A stretch of 64,000 nt of DNA from NCBI GenBank assembly GCA_017480785.1, contig JAFURZ010000008.1, positions 115,063-179,062 on the forward strand, in the 5' to 3' direction. Both the position numbers and the translations under genes were made by a program. Numbering within the stretch: position 1 is the first letter of the stretch; each line of letters begins with the position of its first letter. Below the pieces are notes generated by a model. It had not been told where the DNA came from. It was given only the letters and a program-made list of their open reading frames with translations, and did not search any database. This DNA comes from Bacteroidales bacterium (lineage in GTDB: Bacteria; Bacteroidota; Bacteroidia; Bacteroidales; P3). Shown here piece after piece: positions 3,114 to 14,683 of this stretch.

Positions 3114-4535
3114 TTAACGACTCCCTTTCACATGGATATTAGGCATTCTGACGGTATACTCGGGGTCGATGAGTTGGCATTGCTCTATTATTATGCGGCG
3201 GCGGGCGATTGCGGGCTGTAAGCAGTAGGTGTCGAATTCCTCCAGGTTGACGTCCTTCTCCTCCACCCAATGCGGGAACAACAGTTTCATGTAGGCGGTC
3301 GCAATGCGCTTGATGGCCGTGAAGTCGCGCATATCGCTGGGGTCGTATTCAATCAGTTTGTCATAGAGCCGTCCATAGTTGCTCTGCACGCGCATCATGT
3401 GCATAATCTCCGAGAAATACTCGATGTTGAGCGTCCAACCCTTGTAGAGCATACTGGTGTCGATACGCGGCAGCAGCCATCCCTCGATGAAGCAATGGAA
3501 ACGCTCAATCAGAGCCGACTCGCGGAAGGTGTCCGGCAGCTCGTCAAAGTAGCGCGGCGAACGAGGCTTACGGTTCTCTGTCAACGCGATATTGCCCATC
3601 AGCATCATCCCACACTCAGATGTAAGGTTTTGGTCAGCAATGGAGACTTTGCCCTGTTCGAGATACGATTTGAAGGCGCCCTGAAGGTCGGCAGGCTCCG
3701 CCATCACAATGGTTTGCACCTCGTCAAGCACAGCAAAGTCGCGTTTCATCAATATTCCCGGCTGTTTCTTCGAGAGGTCGTAGAACATCTTAGCGCGTGT
3801 AATCTTTCCGCTTCCCAGCCAGCCATATTTGCTGATATTGTTGAACACATACGATTTGCCAGTACTCTTCGGAGCCAGCTCAATCGTGTTCAGGCGGGGT
3901 TCTACAAAGATTAGCAGTCGTGTGAGGAATTCCAGTTTCTGATGCATCCCTTGGAAAGCGTCCGGCTCATATTCCATCGACGAAAGCATCAGGTCAATCC
4001 ACTCTTCAAGAGTGAAATGACGACGAGCCTCTTGGAAGAACTCAATGCTGATGTCGGTAAACGGTTTGAATGGACGAAAGTCAATCATTTCCACGTGGTT
4101 CGTCTTTCCGTTGTCGTTGGGCATCAGACAAATCTTGATGATTCCCCACATCTCGCCATCCACCAATTCGGGATATTTCGTTGTGAGTCTCATCGGGATA
4201 ATACCCTCATTCTCACCAATTCCTTGTTCGGGAATGCCGAAACGGCAGACGTTGTTCCTGAGATCAATATTCACCGTGAATCGTGTCAGCAGTTTCACCT
4301 CCTGTCCTTCGTGAAGCTTACGCTTGATGTTTCCTTTGGGCATCATCTCGGAGAGGAAACGGCTCAAACCACCAGCATCCACCTCGCTCCCATTCGAGTA
4401 GCGTCGCAGCAGGAAGTCCTTCACGAAAGAAGGCAGATTGCGTCCGCTGAAGAGAGTGTTGGTAGTGGCGCTGTCTTTATAAATAGCGACATCCTTCAGG
4501 TATGTCTGTACTTTTTCGGCAATCTCTTGTTTCAT
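3114..4535 (-). CDS. brxL: BrxL-like AAA+ ATPase of the BREX system, short form
   Basis: This 473-residue protein has a BrxL N-terminal domain (residues 1-200, FVKDFLLRRYSNGSEVDAGG) and an AAA+ core: Walker A APKSTGKS at 221-228, Walker B FAVLDE at 267-272, and LMGNIALTENRKPRSPRYF as a sensor region. BrxL is a ring-forming, DNA-binding ATPase needed for phage exclusion in studied BREX systems. Long BrxL (about 680 residues) adds a Lon-protease-like C-terminus. Here no Ser-Lys protease domain is visible, and the length fits the short BrxL-like family, so I do not call it truncated. It is the last gene of the minus-strand operon, 3 nt after pglZ. Assignment rests on motifs plus gene order. Confidence 0.85.
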   Translation of the reverse strand: MKQEIAEKVQTYLKDVAIYKDSATTNTLFSGRNLPSFVKDFLLRRYSNGSEVDAGGLSRFLSEMMPKGNIKRKLHEGQEVKLLTRFTVNIDLRNNVCRFGIPEQGIGENEGIIPMRLTTKYPELVDGEMWGIIKICLMPNDNGKTNHVEMIDFRPFKPFTDISIEFFQEARRHFTLEEWIDLMLSSMEYEPDAFQGMHQKLEFLTRLLIFVEPRLNTIELAPKSTGKSYVFNNISKYGWLGSGKITRAKMFYDLSKKQPGILMKRDFAVLDEVQTIVMAEPADLQGAFKSYLEQGKVSIADQNLTSECGMMLMGNIALTENRKPRSPRYFDELPDTFRESALIERFHCFIEGWLLPRIDTSMLYKGWTLNIEYFSEIMHMMRVQSNYGRLYDKLIEYDPSDMRDFTAIKRIATAYMKLLFPHWVEEKDVNLEEFDTYCLQPAIARRRIIIEQCQLIDPEYTVRMPNIHVKGSR

Positions 4536-4538
4536 AAC

Positions 4539-6941
4539 CTAAAAATCCATTATATCGTTTTCTTTCACAGCCATCTGCAATTCCACATCAAAAGTCTCGC
4601 TATGTAATCCAACAATCACTGTCACTTGTTTCACATCGGGATCTAATTCCAGTCGCTCGCTTCGGTAATTCGCCTCTTCCTTCCTCAATTTGTAGTTCTC
4701 TCTATTGTAGAGGAGGCTTGGGGTTTCATTAGGTTGTAATCCCACAAAAGCAACTTCAAATATAGGATTGGATGCATTCAGCGAGGTGGTAATCTGTCTA
4801 GCTGTCCAACGTCTCGATTCCTTCTTGTCCGAAATGACAATGATGGGCACAAGAGTCTCTTCGGGTGTTGCTCCTCCGTGTGCACCTGTACCTTCTGCCA
4901 CTTTTCTGCTGAGAGAATTGTGTCGTAATGCCACCAGTTCTTTCCCCTCATTGATGCGCAAATAGTATTCGTCGGCCACAATGCCTTTCTTGCATCCCGC
5001 ACAACGTCCGTAGTGGTCGCTATCTATTCCTTTCAGGTTCCTTCCATCGACCATCTGCGACAGGTAGGTCATTCCGTGATCACTCACGATGGCTATCTTT
5101 TGCTTCGGATGGGCATCGAGGACTGTATTGATGGCTTTACGTACCGCAGCGATATCGTCAATGATATATTGCGGATATTCTCTGACAGTATGAGCCAATG
5201 AATCCAAATCGCCTATCTTTTCCAATAGAACTCCACCCAGTTGTTGCAGGTCTTCTTTGTTATTCTTGGTTCTGGTGGGTAGTTTGGCCCGGGCCACAAG
5301 CACCTCATTCAAATAGTAGCCGTCGTTCTCTCGCTCTTTCACCACTTGTTGTATCAGCGGCACCCAATCCAATCCCAAACCGTCTATCCAGAAGAACACG
5401 TTGATGTCTGTACGTCCGCTCATCACCGTTTTCACCGTCGAGAAGCGGTCATACCAATCGTGGAACGAGGATTCCGATTCATTGACGCTTGAAATGAGCT
5501 CACCCATCTCTTTGGAATATACGCCCGCCAATTTGGCATACTTGTATTCTTCAAAATATTGGGTCACCCAGGTAACTTCTGACGATAGTTGTGTATTGGC
5601 CAAATAATAGTACAAATCTGGATAGAGTAGCTTTAGGTTGGTTTGTACAATGTGACCGTTGTTGTACCACTCTATGACAAGCCGTTTCTCCACGTCCGTG
5701 GCATGAGTAAAGAAACGAAGCGCAGTGGCGACCCCATCCCGTTCAGCCACTTTTTGTAGCCGTTCTGCAAGTATTGACTGTGCTGTGGGCGACAAAACGA
5801 CACCTCTCCGCAGAGCCTCTTCCATTCCGCTCTTCCGCTCTTCAATATAGTCATAGGCTTCGTCTTCAAGGGTGAAGATTTGCAGGGCTATTTGTTCAAG
5901 GAAACGTGGCGTAGCGTAGTCATCCATCGTGGCTAACACACGGCAAATATATCCTTTCTCGCAGACTCGATTGCGATAGTACATCGAGATAAGCCAGCGG
6001 TCAAAACTGCTATTGTTATCAAACCAGAGACGATAGAAACTACTGTATTCCGTCAATTCATAAATTCCGAATCGTTTGGTAAAATAGTTGTCAAAATCGA
6101 AATCTTCAATGCTTATCTCCGTGGCCAATTGTTCCCAGTATTGGCGGTCTTCCTCGCGATATTCGCATTGTGGTACCTTGACATTCAATGCGTCGTGTAT
6201 GAATTGGTAAGCATTATAGCAGATGCAATAACTAAAAGCGTTGTCGGGCTGTGCATGTCCTGCATTGGCAAAGATAGCCGATGAGGTGCAGATGATATTA
6301 GGTTTCAGTTCCGGATAACGCCAACATCTCAACCATTCGGTCACCGTTGGAGCGATGTTGTAGTGTCGTTCCACATCGTGTACCCCATAGGTGGTGTTGT
6401 TTGTCAACACCAAGCGATAATTGAGTTGCCGGTCGCTGTTATGGAAATAGTATATGAACGACTGGCTTTGCTCTCGGAAACGTTCCGTTTTGCTTTCAAG
6501 ACCAATAATGGGAACATATACCCGTTGATGGAAATCCACACCATCGGTAGTGGCCTCAATGCCACGTATGGTACCTATCAAGGCATTGAACTCAAAGTGC
6601 GGTTCGCTGTTATCGTAAAAACGAGCCAATTCCGATAGAGGTGTAATCAGTAGGTGTTCGCTACTGTGCCCGTGGATGGTTTCCCTTATCTTCCTTTCCA
6701 ATGTGGTGTGGGTGATAAGGGTATCGGGATATTCTTCGTCCATCCATTTGTCGATGCTGACAAAGGTCATCGAAATCTTGTTCTGTTGTTCCTCGATAAA
6801 ACTACAGCAGTCGCGGAAGTTGTCGAACAGCAGCAACCTTACCGGGAAGCGGTCTCGCGTCGATGCTCCCACGCCTTTCTGACACCGATCGTCATCCAAT
6901 GCGGCCATCAGGTCGGCCAGACTTTCACATTGTTGAAACAT
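4539..6941 (-). CDS. pglZ: PglZ, alkaline-phosphatase-superfamily protein of BREX type 4
   Basis: This 800-residue protein carries the PglZ domain in its C-terminal half: NVFFWIDGLGLDWVPLI (metal-binding Asp near 520), IAIVSDHGMTYLSQM (Asp621-His622) and GAHGGATPEETLVPIIVI near residue 700. These are the metal-site motifs of the alkaline phosphatase superfamily. The first 500 residues are helical and lineage-specific. PglZ is the hallmark of all BREX types; its substrate is unknown. The gene starts 4 nt after brxC and ends 3 nt before brxL, so the three are almost certainly co-translated. The start at 6941 follows from this spacing. Nothing looks damaged. Confidence 0.93.
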   Translation of the reverse strand: MFQQCESLADLMAALDDDRCQKGVGASTRDRFPVRLLLFDNFRDCCSFIEEQQNKISMTFVSIDKWMDEEYPDTLITHTTLERKIRETIHGHSSEHLLITPLSELARFYDNSEPHFEFNALIGTIRGIEATTDGVDFHQRVYVPIIGLESKTERFREQSQSFIYYFHNSDRQLNYRLVLTNNTTYGVHDVERHYNIAPTVTEWLRCWRYPELKPNIICTSSAIFANAGHAQPDNAFSYCICYNAYQFIHDALNVKVPQCEYREEDRQYWEQLATEISIEDFDFDNYFTKRFGIYELTEYSSFYRLWFDNNSSFDRWLISMYYRNRVCEKGYICRVLATMDDYATPRFLEQIALQIFTLEDEAYDYIEERKSGMEEALRRGVVLSPTAQSILAERLQKVAERDGVATALRFFTHATDVEKRLVIEWYNNGHIVQTNLKLLYPDLYYYLANTQLSSEVTWVTQYFEEYKYAKLAGVYSKEMGELISSVNESESSFHDWYDRFSTVKTVMSGRTDINVFFWIDGLGLDWVPLIQQVVKERENDGYYLNEVLVARAKLPTRTKNNKEDLQQLGGVLLEKIGDLDSLAHTVREYPQYIIDDIAAVRKAINTVLDAHPKQKIAIVSDHGMTYLSQMVDGRNLKGIDSDHYGRCAGCKKGIVADEYYLRINEGKELVALRHNSLSRKVAEGTGAHGGATPEETLVPIIVISDKKESRRWTARQITTSLNASNPIFEVAFVGLQPNETPSLLYNRENYKLRKEEANYRSERLELDPDVKQVTVIVGLHSETFDVELQMAVKENDIMDF

Positions 6942-6945
6942 AGGG

Positions 6946-9900
6946 TCAATCGTTTATCAGAACATCCAATACATCTTCAATACCCAACTCCGTAATCCTG
7001 TTCAGCAGTCGCTTGGCTTCGTCCAACGTCTTTATATCCTTTACTCTACCACGCGCCATTGCCACTTTCATTTGTGAACCGTAGGTGGTAGTTGACTCTT
7101 CTGCAACCTTGCTTACGTTGTCGAGGTCTATCTTGTCAACTATTCGGATAGTATTATTACTGGATAGATTTGTTGGCGACATTTGACTCAGTCTCCAGTC
7201 CTTCAACTTTTCGGCCACATCAGCTTCTGTCCACAAACCCACCTCTGCCTGCATGTTCTGTTGCACATACAGTTTGGCATCATCCAGTTCATTGGGCTTC
7301 AATCCCACTTTGTCTTGGGAGAACAAGAACTGCTCGTATCCTTCGATGAAGTTGTTTTGCTTGTCGGTAACGGTGAGCAATCCACGGAATTCAAAGTCGT
7401 AATTCTTCAGCAATTCCAGAGTCTCTGTCATCAACGCGGGATTTTTCATTCCATCGGGTTCGCAAATACGCAGCAGGTTATCCACTAACTGGCATAAATT
7501 GTTGCGCATCGCATTTTTGGGCATCGATTTGCAGTATTTCAATCCCCACAACGGGGCGCCTTTCTCTTTCAAATAGGCGTGAGTCAATGCCCAGCGGGCA
7601 TCAGTCAAACTACTCACATCATGATAGTCTTTTAGCGTATTGAGTTTAAACAGGTTGATGAACTGCTTTGCCAACTGGCCCTCTTCTTTGGTTTGGAACT
7701 TGAACTCAAGTTTATTGCGGTTTCCGCCACCATCCCATACTTTGAACAATTCCGCCACATCGTCTACAAGATGTTTTGCTGTGCGAGGTTTTCCATTGAG
7801 ATCAAATATCTTGCCAATATAGGGGCGCAAGGCAAACGCCACCATTCCCATACCTGCGTGTGAGGGAAACAAGCCATAGGGCGGCTTGGTCAATGCTTCC
7901 AAATGATACGACAGGTTGAAGTTGGCCGACTTGTCTGCATGGTCAATCTTGCTCTTCACGAACTTGCACACCTTCACCAAGGGATGATTGGGGTCAACGT
8001 CATCTTTGAATTGCAGGTTCTCGTCCACGCTGTCCTGTAGCAGGAAGTTCATGTGCATGGCCGGTCCTTTGCAGCGGTCGCACACCTCCTGCTTTGTGTT
8101 GAATTGCAGCACCGCCTCTACGGTAGCTTTCACAAACTGCTTCTTCCAGTAGGTGGTGGAGGACTTCAGACGTATCAACTCCAATCCTTCGGGACCTGCG
8201 GGGAAAATCATAGGAGCAATACTGCTGTTGATGAAAGAGGTAATTCTACCGGCATCTATACTCAACGGATCGGTGACGCTTGCGGGTTTGTTGCTAAGAT
8301 AGATGTATGTTATTCCTCTCATCGCACTCTCCACCCACTCTTTCACCATCTGCTCAGCATTGTCAGTATGCGATTTCATCTGGTCGGCAAATCCGTGCCG
8401 TTGGGCACATTGTGCATTGGCTTGATATTCGATAAATCGCTCATATTCACCATCACCCAAGCTCTTATCCATCACCAGGAATACGACATCTTTGTATTTC
8501 CCGTCCTCATCTTTCGCGGATTCTTCTGCTATCTGACGCAGCTCTATCAGTTCGTCGGCATTGCGGGCAAAGAACATAGCCAGCATCAGTTCATATCCTT
8601 GTGCTTTCTTTGCTGTACGTTCCATGCTGCTCAACAGAGTGTATTTGTTGGAGTCCAACGAGAAAAACTCAAGCCAATAAGGACGTGCAACATTGGCCAG
8701 TTTCTTCTCCACAACCGTGCGGGCCGTATTGAAAGCACGAAGTATATTGTAGGTGTATCTGAACTCTGTCAGTTTGAGGTTTTGTTTGATGTCGTTCACC
8801 TCACCCAGCGGCAATGCCGAGAAGCGTATCTCGTACAACCCGGAGGGTGATCGTTGGATGACACCCGCTTCGTTCAACCATCCGAGAATGTCATTCAGTT
8901 GCGGTTCAACGGTTGTGCCAATGAATAGGTTGGCTATGTTCTCCTCGCTGGGTGTGACTGTTTCGGTATTGGCTATATTGTTGAATGCATTCAGTAGCAG
9001 TATTCCCTTAAATACCCGCATGGTGGCTTCACCTTGATGCTCTACCGTTTTCTGATAGGAATTGAATCGCTCGTTCACCACACCGAATTTGCTGACATTC
9101 TGCTGCATCTCGGGCATGATGTAATCCCATAGGTAATCCACCGTAATGGTTTCTCCTTGTTTAAATACTTTTGAATCATTTAGGAATTCCCTTACAGGGT
9201 CGCTGGCAAGGAAATCGAACACCGAGCGGCTACTGCTTCCCACCTCACGGGCATAGTAGGTGGCCAGGTTGGCGGTGGCTGGATGCAGCGGGAAAAGATT
9301 CTTGAGGTCTTTCTCTGTTTCTGCAGGCTGATTACTGGTTTGTGCCAGTTGTGAGTAGAGATTCTTTGCCTCAAAATAGAAAGTTGCCGATGCTGTCACC
9401 TCGCTCAGGGGGACTATCTGACGGAACTTGCGGCTCATAATCTTGAAGGCCGACACGGGTTCCATATTATAGTGCAGATAATGATATCGGCCAATGGTCT
9501 TGGTGCGCTCCTGTGCACTCAGGCGGTCGAGTGCCGACGGGTGTGAGATGAACAGGAAGTAACTATCGTTGTCGGCATTCATGGCCTCCTCTGCCAATAA
9601 TTGCAACTCTACCAGGATAGATATTCCAAGTTCTGATTTCACAACATCGGTAAACTCGTCCCACACTACCAGAAGGCCATTGTAGGCAGACTTCTCTCGT
9701 AGGAGGTTCTGTACCTCAAAGAACCAACGGCCAAGGTTCTCCTGACGCAGACGCACGCTGAGGCCTTGCCGACGACATGCATCTTTGGCTTTTCGCAAGG
9801 TTGCGCTGTCATAATCACGCAGCAATTTCACCAGTCTTTTGCGGTCGGGCGCGATGGAACGAAGTTCGGCATCCGCAGCAATGGTCAAATCCCAGAAACT

Positions 9901-10410
9901 GGCATTATGCTCGATGTGTTGAATATAGTTGTCGTAGTCGGTGCGGATATCAAGCTCGATACCATTGGCTTGCAAAGCCTTCTGTATGCGTGTCTGCATT
10001 ACCAGAGCAAGGTCTTCTTTGTTCGAAATGCCACATTGCCCCACCAGGGTGACAGGCATCAGGCGTTTTTTCTCGCGGAGCCCAAAAATCTGTTTGCGTA
10101 GCAGGTCATACTGCGGATCACGATATTCCTCGTTCACCCACTGGCGTATTTCCTCCACGTTGTCGCATAACAGATGTTTCAGCACAGCACCAGCATGGCT
10201 CTTTCCCGTGCCGTATGTACCCTCAATCCATAGTGAGCGGTGCTTGTCCATGTCGTTGTTACGCACAGCGCCTATGGCCTTGATGAGAATCTCGTTGAAC
10301 TGTTGATTAGGCAGGAAACTCTCCCAGTTGCCAGCCTCTTCCATTTCAATATTGTAGGCGGGCTTTCCTTCGCGGATTTGCACCGCATCCCAGTAGGTTT
10401 TTATTGCCAT
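6946..10410 (-). CDS. brxC: BrxC/PglY-type large ATPase of the BREX system
   Basis: This 1154-residue protein has Walker A GTYGTGKS (64-71) and Walker B LLVVWDEF (246-253) in an ORC/STAND-like ATPase domain, followed by long helical regions typical of BrxC/PglY. A Cys pair (CDRCKGPAMHM) may bind metal. BrxC is an essential BREX component thought to form large assemblies on DNA with the other Brx proteins. Length is within the usual 1100-1250 range. The stop codon of the inserted AAA_14 gene is 15 nt upstream and pglZ follows after 4 nt, so transcription probably comes from both the operon promoter and the local promoter at 11676-11683. No frame damage was seen. Confidence 0.9.
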   Translation of the reverse strand: MAIKTYWDAVQIREGKPAYNIEMEEAGNWESFLPNQQFNEILIKAIGAVRNNDMDKHRSLWIEGTYGTGKSHAGAVLKHLLCDNVEEIRQWVNEEYRDPQYDLLRKQIFGLREKKRLMPVTLVGQCGISNKEDLALVMQTRIQKALQANGIELDIRTDYDNYIQHIEHNASFWDLTIAADAELRSIAPDRKRLVKLLRDYDSATLRKAKDACRRQGLSVRLRQENLGRWFFEVQNLLREKSAYNGLLVVWDEFTDVVKSELGISILVELQLLAEEAMNADNDSYFLFISHPSALDRLSAQERTKTIGRYHYLHYNMEPVSAFKIMSRKFRQIVPLSEVTASATFYFEAKNLYSQLAQTSNQPAETEKDLKNLFPLHPATANLATYYAREVGSSSRSVFDFLASDPVREFLNDSKVFKQGETITVDYLWDYIMPEMQQNVSKFGVVNERFNSYQKTVEHQGEATMRVFKGILLLNAFNNIANTETVTPSEENIANLFIGTTVEPQLNDILGWLNEAGVIQRSPSGLYEIRFSALPLGEVNDIKQNLKLTEFRYTYNILRAFNTARTVVEKKLANVARPYWLEFFSLDSNKYTLLSSMERTAKKAQGYELMLAMFFARNADELIELRQIAEESAKDEDGKYKDVVFLVMDKSLGDGEYERFIEYQANAQCAQRHGFADQMKSHTDNAEQMVKEWVESAMRGITYIYLSNKPASVTDPLSIDAGRITSFINSSIAPMIFPAGPEGLELIRLKSSTTYWKKQFVKATVEAVLQFNTKQEVCDRCKGPAMHMNFLLQDSVDENLQFKDDVDPNHPLVKVCKFVKSKIDHADKSANFNLSYHLEALTKPPYGLFPSHAGMGMVAFALRPYIGKIFDLNGKPRTAKHLVDDVAELFKVWDGGGNRNKLEFKFQTKEEGQLAKQFINLFKLNTLKDYHDVSSLTDARWALTHAYLKEKGAPLWGLKYCKSMPKNAMRNNLCQLVDNLLRICEPDGMKNPALMTETLELLKNYDFEFRGLLTVTDKQNNFIEGYEQFLFSQDKVGLKPNELDDAKLYVQQNMQAEVGLWTEADVAEKLKDWRLSQMSPTNLSSNNTIRIVDKIDLDNVSKVAEESTTTYGSQMKVAMARGRVKDIKTLDEAKRLLNRITELGIEDVLDVLIND

Positions 10411-10425
10411 ATATTGTTTCTGTTT

Positions 10426-11652
10426 TTAATTCGATGTGTTGTTCTCCATTTCGAGCAGAAAGTCGCCGATGTACACACAGCGCACGCCGTCTATGTTGCC
10501 CGCCACCATAGGGTTTCCCACGACAATATATTTTGGATGGTTGTCCTTGATGGCCATCAGTGGACGCAATTCGCGTTTCTGAGTCTCGTCTGATTCCATA
10601 TTGTTGGTTACTTGCAGGTATACGACCTCGTCGCCTCTGCGGGCTACCAAGTCAACCTCAGTCGAACCCATCCAACCCGTATACACCTCATATCCGTTGC
10701 GACGGAGCTGAAGGTATACCAGATTCTCGAGCATGCCGGCTATCAGTTCTGGGGTATAACCTCTCACGCTATAGATGAGTGAAAGGTCAGAAACATAGTA
10801 TTTCTCGTTTGTCTTCAACAGTTCTTTACCTTTGATGTCATATCTTTTCACTTTGTTGATGATAAACGAAGACTCTAACGCCTGAAGGTAGTTGTAAAGC
10901 GTCTCACTGTCGAGCGAACGACCCTGACTCTTCAGGTATCGTATGATACTGCTTGCACTGAAAGTGTTGCCTATGTTGTCGAAAAGGAAATGCACCAACC
11001 GCTCCAGCATTTCGATATTGCGTATGGAGTAGCGCTGTACCGTATCGCGTAGCAGAACAGAAGCGTAAATGTCACGTACGGCACGGTATATCTCATCGTC
11101 GTCATAGTCGTAGAGATGGAACATGGGGAATCCCCCTTGACGCAGATATTGGTCGAAACGGTCTATCCTTTCACTCCCCTTAGGGCTATTAAAGCCATGG
11201 AATTGGAGGAATTCATTATATGAGAGCGGGTGAACTGCAAATTCAACATACCGTCCGGCAAGGTAGGTGGCTAATTCCGAAGAGAGCAGCCTCGAATTGG
11301 ATCCAGTGATGTAGATATCCACGTCCCAATCCACCATCATCGAGTTCACCGCCCGTTCCCATTCTGCCACCTCCTGTATCTCATCGATAAAAAGGTAACA
11401 TCGCGCATCTTTCGGTCTTACACCATCCACATATGCATACAGCGTGTCATAAGTGCGGTAGGAAGACCACCGCAAACTCTCGTAGTTGAGGTACACTATC
11501 TGGTTATCACGCACACCGCGTTCTTTCAGATGGCTTTGTAACAATTGCAACAATCCCGATTTGCCGCTACGTCGTATACCCGTAATCACCTTCACGACTG
11601 GCTTGCCGATGAAAGGTTCAATCTTTGCTGTATAGATAGGTCTGGATTTCAT
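10426..11652 (-). CDS. AAA_14/DUF4143 ATP-binding protein inside the BREX operon
   Basis: This 408-residue, full-length AAA_14-type protein has Walker A ITGIRRSGKSGLLQLL, Walker B CYLFIDEIQEVAEWERA, DIYITGSNSRLLSSELATYL, a winged-helix segment (NTFSASSIIRYLKSQGRSLD) and the C-terminal nuclease-like DUF4143 part (GSTEVDLVARRGDEVVYLQV). The family is widespread and poorly understood; members are mobile and often sit in variable regions. It lies between brxC and the small ORF on the same strand, 15 nt before brxC, and has its own TATCTTTG box at 11676-11683. It is not a standard BREX gene, so it is either a passenger or an accessory subunit. It serves as the intact reference for the deleted copy at 2125-2880. 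Confidence 0.88.
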   Translation of the reverse strand: MKSRPIYTAKIEPFIGKPVVKVITGIRRSGKSGLLQLLQSHLKERGVRDNQIVYLNYESLRWSSYRTYDTLYAYVDGVRPKDARCYLFIDEIQEVAEWERAVNSMMVDWDVDIYITGSNSRLLSSELATYLAGRYVEFAVHPLSYNEFLQFHGFNSPKGSERIDRFDQYLRQGGFPMFHLYDYDDDEIYRAVRDIYASVLLRDTVQRYSIRNIEMLERLVHFLFDNIGNTFSASSIIRYLKSQGRSLDSETLYNYLQALESSFIINKVKRYDIKGKELLKTNEKYYVSDLSLIYSVRGYTPELIAGMLENLVYLQLRRNGYEVYTGWMGSTEVDLVARRGDEVVYLQVTNNMESDETQKRELRPLMAIKDNHPKYIVVGNPMVAGNIDGVRCVYIGDFLLEMENNTSN

Positions 11653-11729: not shown

Positions 11730-12209
11730 TTATGTGGTTATACTCGGATAAAATTGATTGTTTTGTTGTAGTCTATCTTGTAAGAAGTGTGTCACCAGAG
11801 CCTCCCGTAGTTGCTGCCGAACTTCTGTTTCTTGTAGTAAGTCCCATAATGCATTGTCCAGATATGCATACTCAATATTCTCACGGACGAACTTTGCGGA
11901 AGGACCTGTTTGAGGCGGTTCATGTTTATATTTTAGATGGTAGAACTGTTCATTTTTTGAATAGTAATATGGTTTGAAAAATGGAGTGGGAATAATATCT
12001 GGCTGATATTCTTTGCAAATACTTAAGTATGCCTCGTTCAGAGTCTCAGAGAAAAGTATTTTGTTGTCAACTACCTCTTCCCCTTTGCCAATCTGGTCAA
12101 TAATCGTGATATAGTACAACGGTTTTGCATTGATAACTACACCACAATGATTTCCTCTGGTAATCGAGAGAAATGCCGTTTTGTAGAAACTGAACAACAA
12201 TTCATTCAT
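11730..12209 (-). CDS. Small BREX-4 associated protein, possible sulfur-binding-domain-like fold
   Basis: This 159-residue protein overlaps brxP by 4 nt (ATGA at 12206-12209), so the two are translationally coupled. I see the order KPLYYITIIDQIGKG, NKILFSETLNEAY, PTPFFKPYYY, QFYHLKYK, then YAYLDNALWDLLQ and VRQQLREALVTHFL. From memory this order (KP-hydrophobic helix-DxIExG, NxIxL, PFFxL, FWHL, LD..LW.LL, R..LREAL) is that of the N-terminal part of McrA/COG3440-type HNH endonucleases, the region that includes the phosphorothioate-binding SBD. No HNH nuclease is attached. The similarity is recalled by eye, not computed. Next to a DndC-like enzyme it would make biological sense. The alternative is simply an uncharacterised BREX-4 accessory gene. 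Confidence 0.6.
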   Translation of the reverse strand: MNELLFSFYKTAFLSITRGNHCGVVINAKPLYYITIIDQIGKGEEVVDNKILFSETLNEAYLSICKEYQPDIIPTPFFKPYYYSKNEQFYHLKYKHEPPQTGPSAKFVRENIEYAYLDNALWDLLQETEVRQQLREALVTHFLQDRLQQNNQFYPSITT

Positions 12210-14683
12210 AAACCAAGCATGAGCCGAATGACATTTTCTGAACTAACATCGTCACGTAACGTAATGTGATCAAGTCCCATCGATAACTCTGCTATCAGTA
12301 CTCGATTTGTACTAGAGTTAATTTCCCGAAGAGCTTTCTCAAATTTATCCTTTGTGACTCCTAGTATTTGTAGAGGTCCGTTTTCGCATTCACCGCCATA
12401 AAAGTCAGATACACGCAAGGTTTTTACTCCAAGATTGTCAGCATACCGATAAATACAATATGCAATTGCGGCATTACTCGAATCCGTGTATTCCTTTCTG
12501 ATAAAGATTTTATCCTCAGGAATAGCCAATCCCATTGTCTCCCCTAATGGTGATTTGTCGAACATGTCCATTATTGCAATTAGTGCATTATCTCTAGTGG
12601 TATTTGATGCTTCGAGAGGAATTTCAATCAGTTCGTCTAATAGCGTCTTTCTATCAAACCGTTGATTTAGACTCACATGATTAACAAACCAATTTACAAT
12701 AAATGAGTTATACGACAGCCCTATCAGTAATAATTCCCATACCAGATCGGGGTTGTCCATATATATCTCATGGAGTAATTGACCAAATGCGGTGATATTA
12801 TTCTTGTCATCAATAACACCAGCATCTTTAAACCATCGTTTGGCACTATCTACCATGGCAGTACCAAGATAATTGGCATCCCAAAAATCCTCTGGAGAAG
12901 CAAAATACTCACTAACCCATTCTTCGCGTAAACCAAATTTTTTGTAAGCTGCTAATTTTGCATTCATTTTCTTTGTTACAAAATTTACCATTCTAACTGA
13001 GTCAGCGGCGATACACCCCTGCTCATGAAATTCTAAACACTTATGGCATTTGATGCATAAGTCTTTGTTAATGATATTATCCGACAAAATATCTAAGGCT
13101 CCTGTCGGACACTCGGCAGTACAGACTTCGCATCTTACACAGTAAGCACTTTTGTTTATTACCCTCTTAATGAAGTAGAGTAATTTTGTGTTATTTGCTA
13201 TGTCTATTGTAAAGTCAATAACGTCTTTTTTGTTTTGGACGATCTTGAAAGAATAAATCTTTCCCTCAAACCTTAATTCTCCAACACTTCCATTTATCGA
13301 TACGTCTCCTATTGTTTGAATCCAGGTATGAAGAGGTGTTGATGGGTGAGAAATGGTTGCTGAAAGCGTCTGCCCTTTTTGAACCAGTTCAACATGAGGT
13401 TTGACTTTGTTGCCAAGTATTTTCAGTTTCCATCTTCGGTCTTTTAAGAAATCTGTAGTGTCTTTTATTCCACTCGACTTTGCCCATTTTTCAATTCTTT
13501 CAACAAAAGGTGCTAATTCTTTTGGATAAGTCTTTTGCACAATCATATCATCCCATGCAGTAGAGAATGGACAAATGATGCATCCGACTCTAGCTTTTCC
13601 GTCTCGATAAGACTGGTTGATGTGCAACCCCTGTTCGAAAAGATAAAGCATAATCTCTGTTGTATTCCAATCTAATATTGGATGAGCATTGAAAATTCCG
13701 ACATGCTTTCCTTTCCCAATTCTCTGATATCCAGACCTCTTTTGGCTTTCTTCTGAACGTACGCCATCGAATGTTAGAATTCGATTTTGCTGATTAGTAT
13801 TATGTTGCTTGAATGTGTTATAGAGAGGAGCTGTTTTCATTATTGAGCAACACCAACGGTGAGTATCACTGGGGGTACCAATCTTGTCCCAGTAGTTCAG
13901 TACCTGCTCGTGGTTGCGGGCAGTACTGAATTTCAGCTCAGGATAGAGCTTGCCATAATGCTCCTTCACCTGTTCGTAGAGATCCAAAGACGAGGGCAAC
14001 TCATAGCCGGTGTCGCTATATATGACCTGGAAGGCGCTTGGAGGCAGTGCCCTCGTGCAGAGGTCGAGCACCACCTGCGAGTCTTTGCCACCGCTGAACG
14101 AGGCCAGGAAGATATCCACCTTGGTTGTGTGCAGCACTTTCTTGCCCTTCAGTTCGGCTTCGTCGGCAGGCATGATGTCGAAACTGTCGCAATCCTCCTT
14201 CACCACAGCCATCTTCTGTTTGGTCTTTTTCTGCTGACGGGTGGCCAGCGCCTCATAGTCGATGACATTGGCCTCCACAGCACGGCTGGCACGGGTATAG
14301 GTCTCGTAGGTGTCGCGGATAAATTCGATGGCTTCGCTCTCCAGCAGGAACATCGCCTCGCGGTTGCGCTCCAACATCCTCTGTATATCCACAGGCTTTA
14401 GCGACTGCGGTTCCACGCCCTCGGCTGGCACCACCGTGGCGGCATCGTAGATATTTGCTCCTTTGGCTTCGAACATTAGCCTTCCACGATAGAAATACTG
14501 CTTGTTGCAAGCCCACATCAGCGGTTCCTGGCAGCGAGGGTACCTCCACCCATGCTCATTTAGCTTCAGTAAGTCCAGCTCTTCATAAAAAACAGGACGA
14601 GGAGACACACCAAGCGTGTCTTTTGTGACATGGCTCTGAAGGAGTACTCCACCTGTCTCTTTGTCCCAAATTATCTTGTACAT
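12206..14683 (-). CDS. brxP: BrxP, PAPS-reductase/DndC-like protein with ferredoxin domain (BREX type 4)
   Basis: This 825-residue protein has an N-terminal region with RYPRCQEPLMWACNKQYFYR, then a PP-loop ATP-pyrophosphatase domain with FLASFSGGKDSQVV (SGGKDS 197-202) and WCCSIMKTAPLYNTF, as in PAPS reductases and DndC. A two-cluster ferredoxin module follows near 510-565 (CVRCEVCTAECPTGALDI and CIKCHKCLEFHEQGC), then a helical C-terminus. BrxP marks BREX type 4. The chemistry is not established; ATP-dependent activation and sulfur or electron transfer are plausible. It is the first gene of the operon, with a TATCTTTG box 65 nt and a perfect inverted repeat 29 nt upstream of the ATG. Length and motifs look intact. 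Confidence 0.88.
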   Translation of the reverse strand: MYKIIWDKETGGVLLQSHVTKDTLGVSPRPVFYEELDLLKLNEHGWRYPRCQEPLMWACNKQYFYRGRLMFEAKGANIYDAATVVPAEGVEPQSLKPVDIQRMLERNREAMFLLESEAIEFIRDTYETYTRASRAVEANVIDYEALATRQQKKTKQKMAVVKEDCDSFDIMPADEAELKGKKVLHTTKVDIFLASFSGGKDSQVVLDLCTRALPPSAFQVIYSDTGYELPSSLDLYEQVKEHYGKLYPELKFSTARNHEQVLNYWDKIGTPSDTHRWCCSIMKTAPLYNTFKQHNTNQQNRILTFDGVRSEESQKRSGYQRIGKGKHVGIFNAHPILDWNTTEIMLYLFEQGLHINQSYRDGKARVGCIICPFSTAWDDMIVQKTYPKELAPFVERIEKWAKSSGIKDTTDFLKDRRWKLKILGNKVKPHVELVQKGQTLSATISHPSTPLHTWIQTIGDVSINGSVGELRFEGKIYSFKIVQNKKDVIDFTIDIANNTKLLYFIKRVINKSAYCVRCEVCTAECPTGALDILSDNIINKDLCIKCHKCLEFHEQGCIAADSVRMVNFVTKKMNAKLAAYKKFGLREEWVSEYFASPEDFWDANYLGTAMVDSAKRWFKDAGVIDDKNNITAFGQLLHEIYMDNPDLVWELLLIGLSYNSFIVNWFVNHVSLNQRFDRKTLLDELIEIPLEASNTTRDNALIAIMDMFDKSPLGETMGLAIPEDKIFIRKEYTDSSNAAIAYCIYRYADNLGVKTLRVSDFYGGECENGPLQILGVTKDKFEKALREINSSTNRVLIAELSMGLDHITLRDDVSSENVIRLMLGL

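Follow-up and report, generated by a model that had tools for sequence, protein, structure and literature searches.

A nuclease-free sulfur-binding domain protein encoded beside brxP, a candidate reader of phosphorothioate marks in BREX type 4

BREX type 4 systems are built from the core genes brxP, brxC, pglZ and brxL (brxPCZL), and DNA phosphorothioation has been reported for them (PMC11931770); the writing of phosphorothioate (PT) marks by this BREX type is, in other words, already published. In the accessible text of PMC12839542, the core parts are listed together with a cysteine desulfurase, and wHTH-SRA-HNH nucleases are named as auxiliaries. Among other PT systems, SspE is a PT reader that works alongside the SspBCD writer and copes with sparse marking, and the passages available from the same paper put the marks in one Vibrio at 14% of CCA sites (PMC9646914). 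With only few sites marked, the question arises how PT systems keep from attacking their own cell. A further group, the SBD-HNH type IV restriction enzymes (NF045808), carries a sulfur-binding domain (SBD) and cuts PT DNA. Here we describe a stretch of 64,000 nucleotides from a Bacteroidales bacterium (assembly GCA_017480785.1, contig JAFURZ010000008.1, positions 115,063 to 179,062; "the window" refers to this whole stretch). It contains a BREX type 4 operon in which the gene after brxP encodes a 159-residue SBD protein without a nuclease. A small nuclease-free reader kept beside the writer would make self-recognition testable in BREX type 4. If our reading is right, BREX gains a dedicated reader subunit, and this protein family a use as compact PT-binding reagents.

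Searches of PADLOC, NCBIfam and Pfam did not identify the SBD gene as a component of BREX. The term "SBD" does not occur in the accessible text of PMC12839542, and the only paper found with both "BREX" and "sulfur-binding domain" (PMC9646914) describes no BREX SBD in the passages available. A published description of a standalone SBD in BREX was not found in a search that did not reach the key preprint or supplements, and such a reader appears to be new in the searched literature.

The SBD protein and its operon

The initial annotation, made from the sequence alone, had likened the 159-residue product to the SBD of McrA-like HNH nucleases and had noted that a nuclease is missing; both points are borne out. 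When 177,635 distinct PDB sequences were searched with phmmer, the sole match at E ≤ 1 was SBDHga1 (8h0l, E 2.4e-7), and a profile built from 37 relatives reached the same structure at 6.2e-26, with the next chain at 0.8. The protein is predicted to adopt the SBD fold, as that annotation had asked to be checked, and the domain fills the open reading frame (ORF), with residues 4 to 146 of the model aligned as one domain. The motifs quoted earlier (KPLYYITIIDQIGKG, NKILF, PTPFF, FYHL and LDNALWDLL) are all present in the translation. We rejected a chance resemblance on the basis of the single-sequence match in the PDB, the profile match and the structural comparison. A tblastn search against plasmids gave 10 records (best E 1e-10), annotated at the match as HNH endonuclease in eight and as hypothetical in two. 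NF045808, the NCBIfam model for PT-dependent (phosphorothioated DNA-binding) restriction endonucleases, matches 24 of the 37 SBD relatives at E ≤ 1 (best 1.9e-9); the window protein itself was without a match to this model in the NCBIfam search.

No nuclease family of Pfam, PADLOC or NCBIfam is matched by the 159-residue ORF, HNH included, and the protein contains no GTPase, NTPase or nickase domain of the kind expected in an SspE-type sensor. It is homologous to the SBDs of SBDHga1, ScoMcrA and SprMcrA but differs from them in that the SRA/HNH part is absent, the pocket histidine is an alanine and the gene lies in a BREX operon. Whereas SspE is a GTPase-nickase, the window protein is a bare, non-catalytic domain. 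Unlike the SBD-HNH enzymes, which have a homologous domain and occur in the same bacterial class, it adjoins a putative PT writer.

The window operon has all four BREX type 4 core genes in the usual order, each uninterrupted and matched to its family (Table 1), with the SBD gene as an extra gene after brxP. The overlap of the two genes noted earlier is confirmed, as they share ATGA, and the PAPS-reductase-like character assigned to BrxP agrees with its family matches. The PP-loop SGGKDS, a CC pair, a CxxC pair and eight cysteines of the ferredoxin part are invariant columns in the six BrxPs compared, which is why the writer looks intact at the sequence level. The operon contains no cysteine desulfurase. 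PF00266 is matched eight times in the host genome, twice strongly (482 and 126 bits), and these proteins could supply the sulfur.

The sulfur pocket and the proposed role

SBDs are reported to read Rp-PT, and in ScoMcrA the residues around the sulfur are H116, R117 (a lysine in the majority of homologs), Y164, P165 (the floor of the cavity) and A168; in the available text, binding was lost when P165 or R117 was changed, fell by 94% with H116I and withstood A168H (PMC6224610). Judged by eye, from the residue numbers and from how the protein aligns pairwise with SBDHga1, the counterparts in the window protein are A28, K29, K79, P80 and Y83. Only five columns are invariant in an alignment of 37 rows, and two of them are the pocket residues K29 and P80. 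The near-invariant S104 and K106 belong to a GPSAK stretch (family consensus TPSAK) which, judged by its residue offset from the conserved proline, would correspond to the loop with which SBDSco contacts the bases.

Based on these results, we propose that the nuclease-free SBD reads the PT marks of its own BrxP and acts as an adaptor that tells the BREX complex which DNA is self, a reading to which we give a probability of roughly 0.6. BrxP would place PT at its target sequences, and a housekeeping cysteine desulfurase would probably provide the sulfur. The pocket containing K29 and P80 would then take up the Rp sulfur at a marked site, and the SBD, having no nuclease of its own, would signal to BrxC, PglZ and BrxL that the DNA bears the mark of the cell. 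The most likely outcome would be that self DNA is spared by the effector even when no more than a fraction of its sites carries the mark. The earlier suggestion that BREX type 4 may both write and read a sulfur mark on DNA is supported. The protein could also be a former PT reader that, now blind to sulfur, regulates transcription or simply links proteins to one another, but K29 and P80 are invariant while the median pair identity of SBD residues 1 to 95 is 32% (39 loci); this explanation, the third in weight among four rivals, seems improbable.

Occurrence and exchange of the SBD gene

The initial annotation had called for a survey of the ORF next to brxP. We used a BrxP alignment to scan one genome per species (84,980 species) and kept the best 80 of 149 relatives together with five loci from viral_contigs, without a targeted look outside Bacteroidota. 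Using a profile grown from three SBDs (40 by a position cut-off, plus L048), we found that in 41 of the 85 loci the gene next downstream of brxP encodes an SBD, and the window, L012 and L145 are further cases. The alternative of a one-off ORF was thereby rejected, and the gene turned out to be optional. Its distance to brxP, measured for 39 of the 41 genes (two are split) with brxP ends taken from the match, ranges from -4 to +29 nucleotides. This close joining would suit a helper on the writer side, with the SBD retaining BrxP at DNA that is hemi-modified or modified in part, so as to restore or spread marks, thereby serving modification and not restriction. The reported binding of hemi-PT DNA by the ScoMcrA SBD (PMC6224610, available part) points the same way. 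On the other side, 44 of the 85 brxP loci manage without an SBD, and the Ssp-PglZ operons described below place the domain elsewhere. We consider such a helper unlikely, although it weighs most among the rivals.

In a tree of 85 BrxP rows (the window, L012 and 83 of the surveyed loci; L077, with brxP cut short, and L064 were left out), one group of 23 has no SBD, and outside this group rows with and without SBD are intermixed, with 13 changes of presence, at least 10 of them forced. For the 85 surveyed loci, this corresponds to 0/23 inside the group and 41/62 outside it, with L077 and L064 counted among the 62 without a tree position. Outside the group, 21 loci are SBD-free, and in 19 of them brxC follows brxP directly; of the other two, L054 has other ORFs in between and L077 is cut short. 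SBD presence follows relatedness in every BrxP or BrxC region tested (nearest-neighbour accuracy 0.72 to 0.88, against 0.54 to 0.55 when shuffled; 58 loci), and no single region stood out as a predictor. Clustering of ORFs of at least 80 residues in the 85 loci gave 13 families present in at least four loci and no partner nuclease, within flanks of at most 6 kb that leave brxL and beyond mostly unseen. Besides the SBD, one family, an 89-residue ORF, had p < 0.05 for SBD presence (p 0.035, uncorrected): it occurs in 3/21 SBD-free loci outside the group of 23, in 0/41 SBD loci and in 1/23 of the others.

Both brxC and pglZ are retained in operons without the SBD, and the effector therefore need not depend on it. 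This matters for a second rival, in which contact with host PT switches the effector on against unmarked phage DNA. SspE is reported to require host PT for its antiphage activity (PMC9646914, available passages), but the SBD protein lacks a GTPase or nuclease with which to act in this way, and we see an activator as a rather poor candidate, ranking behind the writer-side helper.

The placement of the reader on the effector side is based mainly on a fusion of the SBD to an effector-side DUF4007. The operon of L123 encodes SspB, SspC (apparently split), SspD, SBD-DUF4007, a 179-residue ORF, a 1478-residue ATPase, PglZ and a BrxL-like protein. In the family of L123, a search with the fusion protein gave matches at E ≤ 1e-10 in 40 of 200 genomes: the fusion itself occurs in three (G377, G1133 and, with an internal stop, G975), while eight match in only the DUF4007 part and 29 in only the SBD part. 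The two DUF4007-only loci that were read (L185 and L186) have the same operon without the SBD. Apparently, the optional SBD was gained independently by the DUF4007 on the ATPase-PglZ-BrxL side, while the writer has its own DUF4007. In these three Ssp-PglZ operons the SBD is joined to the second DUF4007 and not to SspB beside SspC, which does not fit a writer-side helper.

Divergence was correlated across 33 SBD operons, with p values from 199 permutations. SBD distance correlates with BrxP residues 1 to 185 (rho 0.50), as a writer-side helper would have it, and with BrxC (0.41), only weakly with DUF4007 (0.21) and not with BrxP 421 to 575 (-0.02). Identities were compared in 39 loci; brxP of L065 is frame-broken, so that its BrxP values are meaningless, and this locus is absent from the 22 operon pairs in which BrxC is at least 90% identical. 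In nine of these pairs the DUF4007 parts are alike (83 to 100%), and SBD residues 1 to 95 are 68 to 99% identical. The other 13 have unlike DUF4007 parts (38 to 48%); there, identity of SBD 1 to 95 is 26 to 52% in 11 pairs and 69 to 71% in two (L032 and its near-copy L036, each against L041), while residues 107 to 143 are still 76 to 100% identical. Background medians are 42, 32 and 46%, the second being that of SBD 1 to 95.

Breakpoints were read in sets of eight and four pairs chosen for alike SBD tails, so that they give breakpoints and not frequencies. L032 and L075 are 90 to 100% identical upstream and as far as about BrxP 300, and again from about SBD 113 through brxC, with 37 to 73% in between. 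L021 and L027 show the same pattern with flanks of mostly 83 to 98%, and between L021 and L044 divergence begins near BrxP 310 and identity recovers by about SBD residue 84. A sharp exchange block thus runs from about BrxP 300 to the BrxP end or into the SBD, between much more similar flanks (L032, L036, L075, L021, L027, L044 and L041). The presumed specificity half of the writer has been swapped, mostly together with the N-terminal part of the SBD, a pattern suggestive of a switch of specificity in BREX type 4. Both selection for matched pairs and a plain lack of homology for crossovers fit its origin. Tentatively, and with more doubt than confidence, BrxP from about residue 300 (ferredoxin, DUF4007) may form, with the first two thirds of the SBD, a matched writer-reader cassette exchanged mostly as a block, so that the marked and the read sequence change together, with BrxC and the conserved SBD tail left in place; the SBD would report PT occupancy to the BREX effector, solving self-recognition at sparse marking. 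If true, the block would show how such systems change specificity.

Several results weigh against a self-recognition reader. The pocket histidine is absent: A28 stands where SBDHga1 has His and ScoMcrA has H116, and it is nearly invariant in the 37 rows, so that His is replaced across almost the whole BREX SBD family. The gene is missing from more than half of the surveyed loci, as given above, and in the window's family sample (190 genomes, 10 with BrxP) it occurs in 2/10, although the SBD-less L011 ends at a contig edge. In 2/41 loci (L031 and L059) it is split into two frames. The tracking of SBD and DUF4007 vanishes with the PAPS part and BrxC held constant (partial r 0.02, p 0.38), which makes it less likely that reader and DUF4007 are closely matched overall; SBD divergence tracks BrxC (partial r 0.30, p 0.005) and weakly the PAPS part (0.17, p 0.045). 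Between L032 and L041, the swap runs from near BrxP 297 to the end of brxP and the SBD is kept. Finally, orphan and ABC-ATPase-linked copies (see below) show that the nuclease-free SBD is not confined to BREX.

Other SBD genes and neighbouring features

A search of the host genome turned up no second SBD, and scans of viral_contigs with the SBD gave no match. In the class sample, 25 of 395 genomes have a match; at 23 of the 25 places, all outside the window, the match lies in a frame of 305 to 366 residues that runs into HNH-like sequence (by eye), and the other two are L106, a similar copy with a broken frame, and L123. Such SBD-HNH-like genes are common enough in the class that a bare SBD might shield PT sites against foreign PT-dependent SBD-HNH enzymes, since a nuclease-free domain would compete for the same sites. 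But the host genome holds no second SBD and hence no home enemy, and a shield leaves the DUF4007 fusion unexplained; of the four rivals, we find it the least probable, and very much so.

The order sample (13 of 393 genomes, window included) contains one more brxP-SBD-brxC-pglZ-brxL operon (L145), orphan standalone SBDs from one genus (L146 and L147), four matches in frames of 321 to 356 residues, three short or partial ones (L148, L149 and L152), and an SBD at the start of ORFs of 761 (L150) and 675 residues (L151). In the genus sample (8 of 119 genomes), L195 is an orphan, and L197 and L198 are standalone SBDs beside an ABC-type ATPase operon.

Table 1. Features of the BREX type 4 locus in the window
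Feature	Position	Strand	Remarks
brxL	3114..4535	-	473 aa; NCBIfam TIGR02688 2.5e-126
pglZ	4539..6941	-	800 aa; NCBIfam BREX_PglZ_4 4.6e-197
brxC/pglY ATPase	6946..10410	-	1154 aa; PADLOC BrxC, E 0
AAA_14/DUF4143 ATPase	10426..11652	-	Pfam; between SBD gene and brxC
Standalone SBD protein, proposed PT-DNA reader	11730..12209	-	159 aa; ATG start
GPSAK, residues 102-106 (family consensus TPSAK)	11892..11906	-	S104, K106 nearly invariant
P80 codon	11970..11972	-	Opposite P of SBDHga1; = SBDSco P165; invariant 37/37 rows
K29 codon	12123..12125	-	Opposite K of SBDHga1; = SBDSco R117; invariant 37/37 rows
brxP stop / SBD start overlap, ATGA	12206..12209	-	SBD-gene ATG and brxP TGA interlock
brxP	12206..14683	-	825 aa; PAPS reductase, 4Fe-4S, C-terminal DUF4007 (Pfam); PADLOC BrxP 4.4e-259; putative PT writer

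The complete gene order is brxP, SBD gene, AAA_14/DUF4143 ATPase, brxC, pglZ and brxL. In the nearest relative operon, L003 (whose contig also carries L013), no gene lies between the SBD gene and brxC, and because the ATPase is absent there it is probably not part of the BREX system. It matches PADLOC PDC-S01 (5.3e-151), and similar ATPases lie near the SBDs of L195 (5e-74) and, weakly, L148 (2e-7).

Some further loci were read by eye or in outline. L031 has a second SBD in one open frame (4894-5433) on the opposite strand, upstream of the brxP whose downstream SBD is split. The record of L012 (MT835963.1), labelled an unverified bacteriophage, holds a BREX type 4 operon that includes the SBD gene and adjoins RhuM-like and relaxase-like ORFs (by eye). 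The N-terminal-SBD proteins of L150 (5687-7972) and L151 (1927-3954) stand beside methylase-like and helicase-like genes (by eye). L197 (3815-8277) and L198 (8130-12526) encode a 164-residue SBD, a 670-residue ABC-type ATPase (DndD-like by eye), an ORF of 93 to 114 residues and one of 536 to 537 residues. The hybrid operons L132 (G377), L183 (G1133), L184 (G975), L185 and L186 share SspB, SspC, SspD, a second DUF4007 with or without the N-terminal SBD, an ORF of 164 to 190 residues, an ATPase of about 1450 residues, PglZ and a BrxL-like protein; in four of the five, a cysteine-desulfurase-like ORF (by eye) follows, and L132 ends before this point.
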